DNA from: Georgenia muralis
Lineage (GTDB): Bacteria; Actinomycetota; Actinomycetes; Actinomycetales; Actinomycetaceae
NCBI RefSeq assembly: GCF_003814705.1
Contig: NZ_RKRA01000001.1
Span: 1,178,001-1,242,000, forward strand
Direction of reading: 5' to 3'
Length of the DNA: 64,000 bases
Shown here one piece after another: positions 581-4,254 of this stretch. The notes under the pieces were generated by a model. That model had not been told where the DNA came from and did no database searches. It worked only from the letters and a program-made list of their open reading frames with translations. The position numbers and the translations under genes are program-made. Numbering within the stretch: position 1 is the first letter of the stretch; each line of letters opens with the position of its first letter.

Positions 581-718
581 CTACTTCGCGCCGGGCGTCG
601 GCCAGCACATCACGCACATCGTGCGCATGGCACCGTCGGACGCGGCCGTGGCAGGCGCCACCGACACGCCGACGAGGGCCGCCGCCAGGAGCACGCTGGC
701 ACCGAGCTTCTTGATCAT
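581..718 (-). CDS. Small secreted peptide, 45 residues, with a CxxC pair
   Basis: I do not recognise a named family. The predicted 45-residue product begins MIKKLG, has a hydrophobic core at residues 6-20 and an A-T-A signal-peptidase site at residues 23-25, so it should be exported by Sec. About 20 residues would remain, ending MRTMCVMCWPTPGAK. The two cysteines (35 and 38) could form a disulfide, bind metal or be a modification site. GGGGAG eight bases before the ATG at 718 is a good ribosome-binding site, which is the main evidence that the gene is real. It lies divergent from a TrmB/LuxR-type regulator, close to a methyltransferase and a LanC-like cyclase, and shares an upstream DNA element with the cyclase operon. 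A RiPP precursor, a peptide signal or a redox/metal peptide are all possible. The Sec signal and the small number of Ser/Thr residues argue against a classical lanthipeptide precursor. Confidence 0.7.
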   Translation of the reverse strand: MIKKLGASVLLAAALVGVSVAPATAASDGAMRTMCVMCWPTPGAK

Positions 719-805
719 TGTTGTCTCCCCTCCCCGAGGTACATGAGGCCCACGGCCTCCTTCCCTGATCATCGGGCCAAGAGCGGTCGGGAACTGCACC
801 AGGGC

Positions 806-829
806 CGTGGCAACTTCCGGTCATGGCAC
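806..829 (-). promoter_or_regulatory. Two-part operator-like element upstream of the small peptide gene
   Basis: Read on the minus strand the sequence is GTGCCATG, nine bases, TGCCACG. The same parts with the same nine-base spacing occur in front of the LanC-like operon at 4231-4254 and, with one mismatch, on the other strand at 4219-4242. The element ends 87 bases before the peptide start codon, a usual place for an activator site just upstream of a promoter. It is also within the 266-base gap shared with the divergent regulator gene, so that regulator is the obvious candidate to bind it. Binding is inferred, not shown. Confidence 0.5.
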
Positions 830-939
830 AAAGTTCCCCCACATCTCCGTATCGTGGTGGGCCCTCCGCCCTCCATGGGTGCCCCCAGGCCGGCACCAGG
901 AGCCACGCGGGTCGACGACCTCCTCACCGCGACTGCCGA

Positions 940-958
940 CCGATCCCCGTACGATCGG
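940..958 (+). promoter_or_regulatory. Inverted repeat upstream of the TrmB/LuxR-type regulator
   Basis: CCGATC and GATCGG are separated by seven bases and end 26 bases before the ATG of the regulator. The repeat could be an autoregulatory operator or a hairpin in the 5' leader. It is unlike the GTGCCATG element further upstream. Confidence 0.35.
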
Positions 959-984
959 GACCGGAAGCGCACGTCAGGAGAGCC

Positions 985-1959
985 ATGTTCGAGCCACTCG
1001 GTCTCGATGAGACCGCGATCGCGGTCTACCGCGCGCTCCTGACGACGCCCGGGCTCAGTCCGCAGGGCCTCACGGTCGCCACCGGTCTCAACCCCGGCCA
1101 GGTGCACGCGGTGCTGGACCTCCTGGAGGAGAAGGGCTTCCTCCGGCGCTCGCACAACGACCCGGGTGAGCTGCGCACCGAGTCGCCGCTGGTCGCCTTC
1201 GAACGCCTCATCGGACGCCACGAGGAGGTGCTGCACCGCTCGCAGGAGCAGCTCAGCTCGATGCGGGCGGGCTCGGCCGAGCTGGTGGAGGAGTACCACC
1301 GTGTGCTCGAGCGCACGCGCCTCGGCCAGATCGAGCACATCGTGGCGACCGACGAGATCGTCGCCCGGGTCCTCGAGCTGGGACAGAACGCGGAGCGGTC
1401 CGTTGATTCCCTGCTGACGACGTCGCCCACCCAGCACCAGATCGAGCAGGCGAAGAGCGACGAGGCCGCCATGCTCGCCCGTGGCATGCGCCTCCGCTCG
1501 ATCATTCCGGCTGCGGGCCGGCACGTCGATGGCGTCGTCGAATACGCCGCTTGGCTACAGGAACGCGGCGGCGCCGCCCGGACGGTGCTGTCGGTGCCGA
1601 ATCAGACGCTGCTCTACGACGGCGAGGTCGCCGTCCTCATGTTCAACCACGCCGACTTCACCCGCGGGGCCATCGTCCTGTCCGCGCCGGGAGCCGTGGT
1701 CGCCCTCCAGTCCCTCTTCGACCTGCTGTGGGAGTCGGGCACGGACCTCGTCGAGCCGCCCAGCCTGGACGAGCTCCGGCCGGAGGAGCGCGAGCTGCTC
1801 CAGCTCCTCGGCCGCGGGATGAAGGACGAGGCCGTGGCACGCGCCCTCGGCATCTCCATCCGCACGGTCCGGCGGATGATCAACATCCTCAGCGAGCGGC
1901 TCGACGCACCGAGCCGGTTCACCCTCGGGGCGCGCGCCCACGAGCGCGGCCTCATCTAG
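985..1959 (+). CDS. TrmB-like / LuxR C-terminal transcriptional regulator
   Basis: The predicted protein has 324 residues. Its first 60 residues (LGLDETAIAVYRALL through the LLEEKGFLRRS wing) look like the winged-helix domain of TrmB-type regulators. The middle is a long helical segment with an uncharacterised sensor region. The last 65 residues carry a LuxR/GerE-type helix-turn-helix (LGRGMKDEAVARALGISIRTV). This architecture is common in actinobacteria, often next to small secreted peptides or peptide-modification genes; that association is from memory. The ATG at 985 is chosen because CAGGAG precedes it and the winged helix begins at once. Its TAG stop shares the four bases CTAG with the stop of the convergent methyltransferase gene. 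It probably controls the peptide gene and the cyclase operon through the shared element; the ligand is unknown. Confidence 0.8.
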   Translation: MFEPLGLDETAIAVYRALLTTPGLSPQGLTVATGLNPGQVHAVLDLLEEKGFLRRSHNDPGELRTESPLVAFERLIGRHEEVLHRSQEQLSSMRAGSAELVEEYHRVLERTRLGQIEHIVATDEIVARVLELGQNAERSVDSLLTTSPTQHQIEQAKSDEAAMLARGMRLRSIIPAAGRHVDGVVEYAAWLQERGGAARTVLSVPNQTLLYDGEVAVLMFNHADFTRGAIVLSAPGAVVALQSLFDLLWESGTDLVEPPSLDELRPEERELLQLLGRGMKDEAVARALGISIRTVRRMINILSERLDAPSRFTLGARAHERGLI

Positions 1960-2837
1960 CCACGATCGCCGAGGAGCTCCTCCATCCGGTCGCGCGGCCC
2001 CTCGGAGCGCACCGCCTCGACGAGGACCTGCGGGTGGCGCGGGCCGGCGTCGGTGACGCGGTGGCGGGCGACCACGTCGAACCCGGCCGCACGGAGCTCG
2101 CGCACGACGGTGGCGACGGTGACCACCCGCAGGCGCGAGGTGCACACGACGACGTCCTCGGCGCCCTGCTCGATCGGCAGTACGGTCAGCCGCCAGGTCG
2201 GAGAGCCGGGCTCCCAGTACTCGTGGACGCGGAAGACCCTCCCGCTCGGTGCGACGACGACGCGCTCGACCTCCACCGGCAGGTCCTCGGCGCCGTGGTC
2301 GACGGCGCTGACGACGAGCCGGCCCTCGGGGAGGAGGTGCCGGCGGGCGCAGGCGAACATCGACGCACGCGCAGCGGGCTCGTACGAGCCCAGGGTCGGC
2401 GACGCCACGACGACCGCCCCGAAGCCCGCCTCGAGGGTGTAGGTCCACGGGTCCGCCCGGACCACCTCGAAGGACGAGCGCAGCCGGGCCGGGCCGAGGG
2501 CGACCCGCCGGCGCACCGCGTCGAGGACGACCTCCGACCGGTCGAGCGCGGTGACGCGGCGGCCGAGGGAGAGCAGCGGCACGCTGAGGCGGCCCGCACC
2601 GACGGCGAGGTCCAGCACGGGCCCGTCGACGCCGAGCACAACCCGCAGCAGGGCGTGGATCTCCCGGAGGTCGCCGTCGGCGACGTCGCCCAGGGTCAGT
2701 GCGCCGACGTCGTCGGTGAGCTCGCGGACGTCGATGTTCCCGCCGAGGGAGGCGACGATGCGCCCGGCGTGGCCGGGGATGCCGTGCGCCGCCGCGCCGG
2801 GGTGGTGATAGGTACGAGCAACGGTCGGGACGGCCAT
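1956..2837 (-). CDS. Class I SAM-dependent methyltransferase
   Basis: The predicted protein has 293 residues. A 70-residue N-terminal segment precedes a Rossmann methyltransferase core with motif I VLDLAVGAGR at residues 74-83 and an acidic residue in VTALDRS ending the second strand, which would bind the SAM ribose. The C-terminal part (VVRELRAAGFDVV) is typical of methyltransferase domain families 11/25. The substrate cannot be read from sequence. It follows the LanC-like gene by 40 bases on the same strand, so the two are probably co-transcribed and may modify one substrate, possibly the nearby peptide. GAGAGGTGG before the ATG at 2837 fixes the start. Methyltransferases accompany LanC-like or dehydrogenase enzymes in several RiPP pathways, but no other known pathway enzyme is present here. 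Confidence 0.82.
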   Translation of the reverse strand: MAVPTVARTYHHPGAAAHGIPGHAGRIVASLGGNIDVRELTDDVGALTLGDVADGDLREIHALLRVVLGVDGPVLDLAVGAGRLSVPLLSLGRRVTALDRSEVVLDAVRRRVALGPARLRSSFEVVRADPWTYTLEAGFGAVVVASPTLGSYEPAARASMFACARRHLLPEGRLVVSAVDHGAEDLPVEVERVVVAPSGRVFRVHEYWEPGSPTWRLTVLPIEQGAEDVVVCTSRLRVVTVATVVRELRAAGFDVVARHRVTDAGPRHPQVLVEAVRSEGPRDRMEELLGDRG

Positions 2838-2877
2838 GGCGGCACCACCTCTCGGCCGGGCGACCCGGCGGACGGCT

Positions 2878-4110
2878 CTACCAGAAGAAGGGGACGCGGC
2901 GCTCCTCGGGACCCAGGAGGGTCTCGAGGGCGATGAGGATCCCGGCGGCGCCGGAGCTGAGGTCGACACCCCGGGCGACGTCCAGGTCCGTGCCGCCCAG
3001 CAGTCCGAGCCGCTCGAGGTGGGGGCGCATGAGCGCGCGCCGCTGGACGGCGGTGTCCCACGGGGTGCGACGGAGGTGCCACAGCGCGACGGCGGTGCCC
3101 GCCGCCCCGTCGAGGAGGCCGGGGCGCTCGGGGACGTAGCACTCGCAGGCCGTGGCGATCCACTCCTGCGCGTCGCCGAGCCAGCCGGCGTCGAGGTGGC
3201 CTGCGGCCTCGCGCAGCACCATGGCGAGCCCGGCGCTGCCGTTGCCCAGGAGCGGCTCCTGCCACCACAGCGGGGAGGCGTTCGCGTCGCTGAGCGGGCC
3301 CCAGCCCAGCAGGGCCAGGTCGTGCAGGAGCGCGACCTCGATGGGAGCGAGGAGCGACTCGTCCTCGGAGACCTCGTACAGGTCGAGCAGGAAGAGGGCG
3401 GCTCCGGCGCCGCCACGGAGCACACCCGCGCCGTGCCGTCCGGCGCCGAGCCGGACCGTGAGCTCGCCGGCGATCGAGGCGAGGCGGTCCATGAGGGCGC
3501 TCTCGTCCAGGATCGGGGCCCGCTCGAGCAGGGCGAGGCCGAGCCCGGAGAGGCCCCGTGCCACCGAGACGTCCAGCGGCCCCAGCGGCGCGGCGTCGAC
3601 CGTCCGCCACAACTCCTCGGCGGCGTCCGCGCGGCCGAGACGGGACAGCGCCAACGCCACGCCGCTCGCGCCGTCGAAGAGGCCGGGCCGGCGCGGGTCC
3701 ACGCGCACGGCCGAGCGCTCGAGCCAGTCCACGAGCTCCGTGGGGACGTCCACACCGGACTCGGCGAGGGCCCACAGCACGCCGGCGGCGCCGCGCCCGA
3801 AGGTCACCGCGGCCTCGCCCGACGGGCCGGGGAAGAGCCGGTCGGACCGCTCGGGGGTGGCCGTGGCGAGGATCTGCCGCACGAGGCGGTCCCGGGTCGA
3901 GCGGTAGGCGGGGGCACCGCGGTCGGTGAGGTCGACGACGGTGCCCCGCCCGCCCCGGCGGACCGGCGACCGGACCGGCTCACGCGTGAGCAGGTCGATC
4001 ACCTCGCCGGAAGCAGCCCCGGACGGGACCACAAGATTCGCCATGCGGGTGCGCGACCCCGTCACCGCTGCACGGCGCTGCTCGAACGGGTGCGTCCTGG
4101 CCTCGATCAT
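2878..4110 (-). CDS. Stand-alone LanC-like cyclase domain protein (class III/IV type)
   Basis: The predicted 410-residue protein resembles the C-terminal cyclase domain of class III/IV lanthipeptide synthetases. It contains the domain-entry sequence ATPERSDRLFPG at residues 84-95, then seven GxxG-type repeats (about residues 104, 143, 184, 229, 287, 331 and 382) that would form the alpha/alpha toroid, and it ends VPFFW. The zinc ligands of true LanC enzymes (Cys in the fifth repeat, Cys-His in the sixth) are absent; the only cysteines are the pair in ATACECY. Class III cyclase domains also lack zinc ligands. The lyase and kinase domains that normally precede this domain are missing, and the first 70 residues are not a kinase. 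AGAGGGGG precedes the ATG at 4110. It could be an accessory binding protein, a cyclase acting with enzymes encoded elsewhere, or a remnant of a larger synthetase. Confidence 0.82.
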   Translation of the reverse strand: MIEARTHPFEQRRAAVTGSRTRMANLVVPSGAASGEVIDLLTREPVRSPVRRGGRGTVVDLTDRGAPAYRSTRDRLVRQILATATPERSDRLFPGPSGEAAVTFGRGAAGVLWALAESGVDVPTELVDWLERSAVRVDPRRPGLFDGASGVALALSRLGRADAAEELWRTVDAAPLGPLDVSVARGLSGLGLALLERAPILDESALMDRLASIAGELTVRLGAGRHGAGVLRGGAGAALFLLDLYEVSEDESLLAPIEVALLHDLALLGWGPLSDANASPLWWQEPLLGNGSAGLAMVLREAAGHLDAGWLGDAQEWIATACECYVPERPGLLDGAAGTAVALWHLRRTPWDTAVQRRALMRPHLERLGLLGGTDLDVARGVDLSSGAAGILIALETLLGPEERRVPFFW

Positions 4111-4218
4111 GGCGGGCCCCCTCTCGTGTTCCTCGTCCGGGTGATCGCCCCGGACCCCTCCAGATCAGGTGCGACACATCGAAACTACGAGGCGGGGAGA
4201 GCCGGTACCAGCCCTGGA

Positions 4219-4254
4219 CGAGGCACGTCCGTGCCATGGCACGTTCATGCCACG
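4219..4254 (-). promoter_or_regulatory. Operator-like element upstream of the LanC-like/methyltransferase operon
   Basis: On the plus strand 4231-4254 reads GTGCCATG, nine bases, TGCCACG, identical in parts and spacing to the element before the small peptide gene. Because GTGCCATGGCAC (4231-4242) is a perfect palindrome, the minus strand also carries the element at 4219-4242 with one mismatch (TGCCTCG). A second inverted repeat, GGCACG-tc-CGTGCC at 4223-4236, overlaps it. The element ends 108 bases before the LanC-like start codon. The rest of the 4111-4301 gap holds no gene that I can support. Confidence 0.5.

Follow-up and report, generated by a model that had tools for sequence, protein, structure and literature searches.

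A candidate peptide-pheromone circuit with a TrmB/LuxR-type receptor and a LanC-like output in Georgenia

What is the role of a small secreted peptide encoded beside a divergent regulator, a LanC-like protein and a methyltransferase, in a gene set which resembles no complete pathway? The four genes lie in a 64-kb stretch of Georgenia DNA (G000:C1:1178001-1242000, hereafter the window) out of a 4.14-Mb, single-contig genome, and a first-pass annotation of the window had offered two answers, peptide modification or peptide signalling. Our analysis favours the latter: the block is probably an autoinduction circuit in which a peptide pheromone acts through a TrmB/PLD-LuxR receptor, with the LanC-methyltransferase pair as its output. 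This reading is backed by sequence, namely by the conservation of the gene set, an operator in common, constant promoter spacing, the domain composition and the association of some members of the regulator family with secreted peptides carrying tryptophan (W) motifs.

All four open reading frames (ORFs) were present in the window where the first-pass annotation had placed them (Table 1), and its account of a 45-residue Sec-type peptide with a ribosome-binding site (RBS), a divergent regulator and a two-gene operon, in which LanC lies 40 bp before the methyltransferase, was borne out. LanC-like genes were detected in 15 of the 99 genomes searched (own genome included), and the peptide, divergent regulator and LanC genes shared the same arrangement in all ten block loci, which come from nine Georgenia genomes and one of another genus (G015). 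As these three genes recur identically arranged in 10/10 loci, the block is not due to chance. The co-occurrence search that the first-pass annotation had proposed was thus positive for three of its genes throughout, and for the methyltransferase in seven loci; in the other three (L059, L071, L072) only ~80–145 bp separate LanC from the regulator. Some genes are missed or fused by our in-house gene caller (e.g. LanC and the methyltransferase of L055). A profile of the peptide gave 14 matches in 213 family genomes, one match per genome, of which ten are true members; those in G146, G147, G148 and G191 were rejected, as the alignment covers the signal peptide only. Codon differences (synonymous/non-synonymous) between G000 and G006 amounted to 4/0 in the peptide, 49/6 in LanC, 30/8 in the methyltransferase and 48/7 in the regulator, and those between G002 and G004 to 10/7, 58/29 and 32/19 in the first three of these genes.

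Common to all ten peptides are a Sec-type N-terminus, called by eye and with in-house rules rather than SignalP, and a CxxCWP core, with K4, A7, S8, A12, P22, A25, C35, C38, W39 and P40 invariant. The mature end of the peptide is approximately SDGAMRTMCVMCWPTPGAK.

A 30-bp palindromic operator that the first-pass annotation does not mention, with a TGCCATGGCA core and outer GGCA...TGCC half-sites, was found both in the peptide/regulator intergenic region and upstream of LanC in 10/10 loci, with 8–10 of the ten core bases kept (copy 1 of L072 is a perfect 24-bp palindrome). A weight matrix, built from 20 sites of which one (L055) is a misaligned 30-mer, returned just the two operator copies in the window at scores >10. 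With distances counted from the centre of the operator to the first base in the -10-like hexamer, GATnAT lies at 49–50 bp on the peptide side and TAnnnT at 49–50 bp on the LanC side in all ten loci; on the regulator side the distance to TAnnAT varies from 62 to 126 bp. Given this equal spacing, the operator would sit near -62 of both the peptide and LanC transcription starts, a usual position for an activator, and self-activation of the peptide gene is predicted. More weight attaches to sites outside the matrix, because the hexamer patterns were chosen by eye: of 15 distinct non-matrix sites in the fetched Georgenia DNA, six have a hexamer at 49–50 on one side, compared with five hexamers over the rest of the 0–99 range, both sides counted. 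The six include a second LanC-like gene of the same genome (LanC2), a LanC paralogue of G005 and a secreted 235-aa protein. Together, the shared operator and fixed spacing predict that both the peptide gene, by autoinduction, and the LanC-methyltransferase operon are activated by the regulator.

Table 1 Features of the candidate circuit, in positions of the window
Feature	Position	Strand	Basis
Secreted peptide gene, 45 aa, candidate pheromone precursor	581..718	-	Sec-type signal, RBS, 10/10 loci
-10-like hexamer GATGAT, peptide promoter	768..773	-	50 bp off operator centre
Operator copy 1 (GGCAACTTCCGGTCATGGCACAAAGTTCCC), peptide/regulator intergenic region	809..838	.	Matrix score 34.1; 8/10 core bases
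-10-like hexamer TACGAT, regulator promoter	950..955	+	TAnnAT 32-36 bp before start codon, 10/10
TrmB/LuxR-type regulator, 324 aa, candidate pheromone receptor	985..1959	+	Domain matches, fold model
S-adenosylmethionine (SAM) methyltransferase, daptide MTase family, second gene of LanC-methyltransferase operon	1956..2837	-	NF041820; in 7/10 loci
LanC-like protein, stand-alone, 410 aa	2878..4110	-	Cyclase part of class III LanKC; no lyase/kinase part
-10-like hexamer TAGTTT, LanC-methyltransferase promoter	4182..4187	-	49 bp off operator centre
Operator copy 2 (GGCACGTCCGTGCCATGGCACGTTCATGCC), upstream of LanC-methyltransferase	4222..4251	.	Matrix score 31.0; 0 mismatches to GGCAN6TGCCATGGCAN6TGCC

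The regulator is built of a winged helix, a long helix, a PLD-like alpha/beta domain and a C-terminal LuxR-type helix-turn-helix (HTH), as judged from Pfam and an AlphaFold2 model (pLDDT 82.9, pTM 0.53, from ten sequences). Pfam HTH_24 matched the N-terminal winged helix above cut-off (32.7 bits), TrmB fell marginally below its own (25.5 bits, cut-off 25.6), and GerE, covering the C-terminal LuxR-like HTH, was also below (22.0 bits, cut-off 23.5). When the model was compared with the PDB in Foldseek, TrmBL2 and TrmB came top, then PLD-fold proteins, with RhlR and VqmA lower. The TrmB winged helix and PLD-like effector domain are thus recognisable, by a Pfam match just under cut-off and by the best Foldseek matches; both archaeal relatives are described in PDB titles (including 2f5t), TrmB as a sugar-binding regulator and TrmBL2 as a chromatin protein. 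Nine orthologues show 58–98% identity. Neither TPR repeats nor an acyl-homoserine-lactone or PAS sensor domain occurred among the best 25 of 27 Pfam matches, and the model does not look like a TPR receptor.

In the circuit that we propose, Sec would export the 45-aa precursor, and trimming would leave a short peptide around C-V-M-C-W-P. Once back inside the cell, this peptide would bind the regulator encoded by the divergent gene, at its TrmB-like/PLD-like domain. From an operator centred 49–50 bp before the -10 hexamer (~-62), the regulator would activate the peptide gene, a positive feedback, and would likewise activate, rather than repress, the LanC-methyltransferase operon and some unlinked genes. 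LanC and the methyltransferase would form the output, possibly as the leftover of a daptide/class III module (methyltransferase beside LanKC) whose lyase and kinase were lost.

Unlinked operators were found at six of nine further Georgenia LanC loci (L056, L058, L062, L064, L067, L069; none at L065, L068, L073), with a hexamer at 49 in L056, L058 and L069. In the own genome the operator pattern matched at eight places, compared with three for a reversed control pattern. Operator and hexamer also precede a glycosidase-like secreted protein (label by eye) in G001 and G003 (L227, L233) and one further G001 place (L235). Own-genome matches without the hexamer lie before a subtilase-like gene (1302330), near an insertion sequence (3454933) and before an ArsR-MFS-radical SAM set (1982716); a match at 1571938 (score 4.8) was taken as noise. 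Downstream of the secreted 235-aa protein (L219:6491-7195, own genome), which belongs to no Pfam family and has an operator with the hexamer at 49, a 78-aa membrane-like protein is encoded; the two could be an effector with its immunity protein. At L222:3195-6716, genes for a radical SAM protein, an MFS-like transporter and an ArsR-type regulator stand after an operator-like site without a hexamer at 49–50.

Related regulator-peptide pairs were found in other actinobacteria. At an E-value of 1e-10 the regulator profile matched in 188 of 394 class genomes (≤5 candidates scored per genome), and 80 loci (L134-L213), picked non-randomly by rank and by hand among the matches listed, were combined with four named loci to give 84. 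A crude caller recorded Sec-type small ORFs (sORFs) with a W within the last 14 residues. Upstream and divergent W-tail peptides numbered 20 within 1 kb of the regulator compared with six at 1.5–5 kb (p 4.8e-9), and with both sides counted a W tail was present in 28/43 near vs 18/59 far (1.5–5 kb) Sec-like sORFs; 31 control loci yielded three divergent Sec-like sORFs, none W-tailed. In 23 of the 84 loci a secreted peptide that has a W close to its end, or several W, was encoded divergently within 1 kb; these loci comprise 18 of the 40 closest regulators among the matches listed, four of the next 40, and Ornithinimicrobium L090. In these 23 precursors D stands three residues before W at 16 of 33 tryptophans, and the precursor ends exactly one residue past the last W in 12 and on the W in one. 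Tandem W motifs were seen in 11/43 near vs 1/59 far Sec-like sORFs, such as GVIGWD twice (L135), TTAWE twice (L139), GFDWG three times (L161) and DLPWT twice (L155, L162). Cysteine forms include ACITCWG in Ornithinimicrobium L090 and, in genus g108, PCIGCW (L175/L253) and PCIDCW (L252); W-motif or CxxCW peptides lie beside five of the six closest g108 regulators (L251-L255, not L117), and fewer lie beside the remaining ones (looser rule, by eye). Applied unchanged at a score >15 to the 80 non-Georgenia loci, the Georgenia operator matrix gave 14 matches (13 loci) within 600 bp upstream of the regulator compared with four over the other 816 kb of those loci.

There is perhaps an even chance that these pairs form one class of autoinducing peptide signals: that in many Actinomycetota, chiefly Streptomyces, precursors with one or more short D-x-x-W-x or CxxCW(P) units are exported by Sec and each sensed by its own neighbouring TrmB/PLD-LuxR receptor at GGCA-N6-TGCCATGGCA-N6-TGCC operators, and that the Georgenia circuit co-opted a daptide/LanKC-derived LanC-methyltransferase pair. 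No description of such a peptide/TrmB-LuxR pairing was recognised among the papers listed by searches of open-access full texts, subscription papers being mostly outside the search, and an earlier description may exist.

Several further loci are recorded here in their own right. In Streptomyces L088:9148-9543 and L089, the gene downstream of a TrmB/LuxR regulator encodes a secreted precursor that contains NNWP six or seven times and resembles a multi-copy signal precursor; in L088 (NNWP six times) the gene is convergent, not divergent, and in both loci a distant relative of the methyltransferase adjoins such a regulator. At L166:6686-9223 a full class III LanKC (RamC_N, kinase, LANC_like) is separated by 705 bp from a TrmB/LuxR regulator, and the interval encodes a secreted DDVTWGQG peptide; two ATP-grasp enzymes are encoded near the regulator-peptide pair of L249. 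A plasmid of Streptomyces sp. HUAS CX7 carries a divergent ‘hypothetical protein’ ending in DDVTWGG.

A number of results weigh against a pheromone circuit. The offset, the hexamer patterns (by eye) and the definition of the W motif were picked after viewing the sequences. No hexamer stands at 49–50 for the operator-bearing LanC paralogues L062, L064 and L067, nor for the four own-genome matches given above, one of them taken as noise. Elsewhere, best palindromes before Streptomyces-type peptides vary in core, and the best palindrome before the 23 divergent W peptides had a hexamer at 49–50 in none (one at 48), so that the promoter geometry is supported for Georgenia and G015 only. The W motif alone is weak because 18 of the 59 far sORFs were W-tailed too. 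As no divergent W peptide was called in 58 of the 80 loci (22 among the 40 closest and 36 among the 40 that follow; crude caller), either only some members of the regulator family have such a partner or many peptides were missed by the caller, and some regulators may respond to something other than W peptides. A sugar could be the ligand of the regulator, TrmB domains being known as sugar-binding (title of PDB 2f5t). The fold model of LanC is weak (pLDDT 57) and matched CuvL, LanCL1 and GCR2 first, with ThurKC just behind, and long-branched trees do not place LanC or the methyltransferase inside daptide clusters.

The presence of a LanC-like protein raises an alternative, in which the locus would be a small cluster for a ribosomally synthesised and post-translationally modified peptide (RiPP): LanC and the methyltransferase would modify the CxxCWP peptide (ring, methylation) before Sec export, giving an antibiotic or a modified signal under control of the regulator. 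We consider this unlikely, though several observations speak for it. Peptide and LanC occur together in 10/10 loci and are predicted to be co-activated, the methyltransferase belongs to a RiPP methyltransferase family (NCBIfam daptide_MTase NF041820, 188.9 bits, cut-off 175), and all ten peptides have a Ser or Thr two or three residues ahead of the first Cys. Short gaps in the window's locus (40 bp, as above, and 191 bp before LanC, which holds the operator) leave little space for another precursor, for which no systematic search was made. Because every peptide found in the ten genomes has a LanC, a modification specific to this group is conceivable.

The features of LanC itself argue the other way. 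It matched Pfam LANC_like at 39.6 bits (cut-off 23.2), yet covered only positions 478–833 of the 833 in the class III LanKC model NF038151 (187.3 bits, cut-off 575), and a profile comparison gives the C-terminal regions of class III-type synthetases as its closest solved structures. The classical LanC zinc site uses two cysteines; as no cysteine is invariant across the ten LanC rows, this site is not conserved. No LanKC above cut-off was found in the own genome by profile search (class I/II dehydratases were not searched for), and LanKC matches there, besides the two LanC genes, cover the kinase part (206–474), except one weak match on 610–762. Negatives of this type are treated as weak, since the same kind of genome search with Pfam LANC_like gave 0 matches where hmmscan finds the domain. 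The N-terminus of the precursor is a Sec-type signal and not a known RiPP leader, the LanC paralogues are unaccompanied by a second CxxCW peptide, and no LanC was found in the examined flanks of the CxxCW peptides of L090, L175/L253 and L252 (for L252, 1.5 kb only). The last two of these observations, with the absence of the methyltransferase from 3/10 loci and six operator-bearing LanC paralogues elsewhere, also loosen the tie drawn by the first-pass annotation between the peptide and the cyclase/methyltransferase pair: within the flanks examined, peptides occur without LanC in L090 and g108, and LanC without the peptide, yet within the ten genomes the peptide always keeps its LanC. The signalling half of that annotation gains from the conserved regulator-peptide pair, the wide occurrence of related pairs and the shared operator with its fixed spacing.

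A comparison with known clusters indicates where the LanC-methyltransferase pair may have come from. In two family relatives, G010 (L074) and G016 (L076), the methyltransferase and LanKC genes overlap by 4 bp, and their order is that of methyltransferase and LanC here. By NCBIfam, L074 qualifies as a daptide cluster (MTase 266.5 bits, with HExxH protease, dehydrogenase and aminotransferase over cut-off) which also contains a full LanKC (847.7 bits) and a SagD/YcaO-like gene, with no RRE gene among the eight proteins scanned; gene families and order are similar in L076. In the trees, the LanKC of L074 and L076 groups with L166 and two distant rows rather than with Georgenia, and their methyltransferase groups with L075; this topology speaks neither for nor against descent of the pair from a daptide cluster. 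On these sequence grounds the pair may be the leftover of a daptide/class III module that kept the cyclase part and the methyltransferase.

By the tests made, the locus is not a daptide cluster and not one for a class III lanthipeptide, which agrees with the first-pass view that no pathway could be named for it. It resembles daptides of the MpaABCDM type (PMC10036551) in its DapM-type methyltransferase (188.9 vs 175 bits), which, like that of L074 and L076, adjoins a protein containing LanC. It differs from them in that no gene clustering with the daptide dehydrogenase, aminotransferase or RRE (families F44, F20, F75 of L074/L075) was called in the 20-kb locus L055, and its precursors end in K, R, Y or N and not in Thr. 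In the own genome the RRE protein gave 0 matches, the controls being silent too, and the dehydrogenase no match better than 77.8 bits (cut-off 300). As to class III synthetases (LanKC; ThurKC, SalKC), LanC matches their C-terminal cyclase domain in sequence but has neither the lyase nor the kinase fused to it.

Other LanC-like genes of Georgenia occur in different settings. LanC2 (own genome 1331235-1332278, L056:9226-10368) adjoins no methyltransferase or CxxCW peptide, and its operator lies 49 bp before a TAATTT hexamer. The paralogues of L062:9661-12742, L064 and L067 stand beside a TetR gene and an apparent Flp/Tad pilus cluster (label by eye), with one operator copy before LanC and another between TetR and a pilin-like gene in L062. 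The operator-less paralogues (L065:10531-11628, L068:10278-10853, L073:9303-9878) each adjoin a member of one protein family, 191 aa long in L068 and L073, whose L065 and L068 members have no Pfam match. Candidates for a second secreted CxxCW peptide in the 20-kb LanC-paralogue stretches were rejected, the pattern matches lying in reading frames judged spurious.

In a further alternative, the secreted peptide would have an antimicrobial, metal-binding or structural role and the regulator would sense another ligand, e.g. a sugar. A CxxC motif can bind metal or form a disulfide, and TrmB proteins, known sugar binders, are the top structural matches of the regulator; tandem W motifs, the pairing with one regulator family and the predicted self-activation suit a signal better, and we regard this explanation as improbable. 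That the four genes are mere neighbours without functional connection is hardly credible, for although the flanking amidase and the dehydrogenase E2 and E1 genes are likewise conserved beside the block, the operator is shared at identical spacing in 10/10 loci and recurs at six of nine other LanC genes.

If the block is a pheromone circuit, it has partial counterparts. Peptide quorum sensing through cytoplasmic receptors is best known from Firmicutes, with TPR receptors, according to PMC10075063. By the criteria of that source, RRNPP systems (Rap-Phr, PlcR-PapR, NprR-NprX, AimR-AimP) have a Sec-type propeptide of 10–100 aa with an adjoining receptor gene, and here a 45-aa propeptide with a Sec signal lies beside the regulator gene in 10/10 loci. 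A short candidate signal, sometimes tandem and located at the very C-terminus in about half of the non-Georgenia cases, and predicted positive feedback are further likenesses. The differences are a TrmB/PLD-like receptor with a LuxR-type HTH and no TPR repeats, an actinomycetotal host, and re-import and binding steps that are here only presumed; because the receptor fold differs, the circuit is RRNPP-like but no member of that group. With TrmB/TrmBL2 regulators the locus regulator shares the winged helix, long helix and PLD-like effector domain, differing by its extra C-terminal LuxR-type HTH and its secreted-peptide genetic partner. With LuxR-family quorum regulators (RhlR, VqmA) it has in common a C-terminal DNA-binding HTH, a palindromic operator and the predicted upstream activator position, whereas no acyl-homoserine-lactone/PAS domain was matched and its signal is probably a peptide.

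Should the circuit prove real, it would represent a second receptor architecture for peptide quorum sensing, common in an antibiotic-rich group of bacteria. The W motifs would then be short, synthesizable candidate inducers for gene clusters, such as those near the regulator-peptide pairs of L166 and L249, and a stand-alone LanC without lyase or kinase would be explained as a regulated output, outside any complete RiPP pathway.

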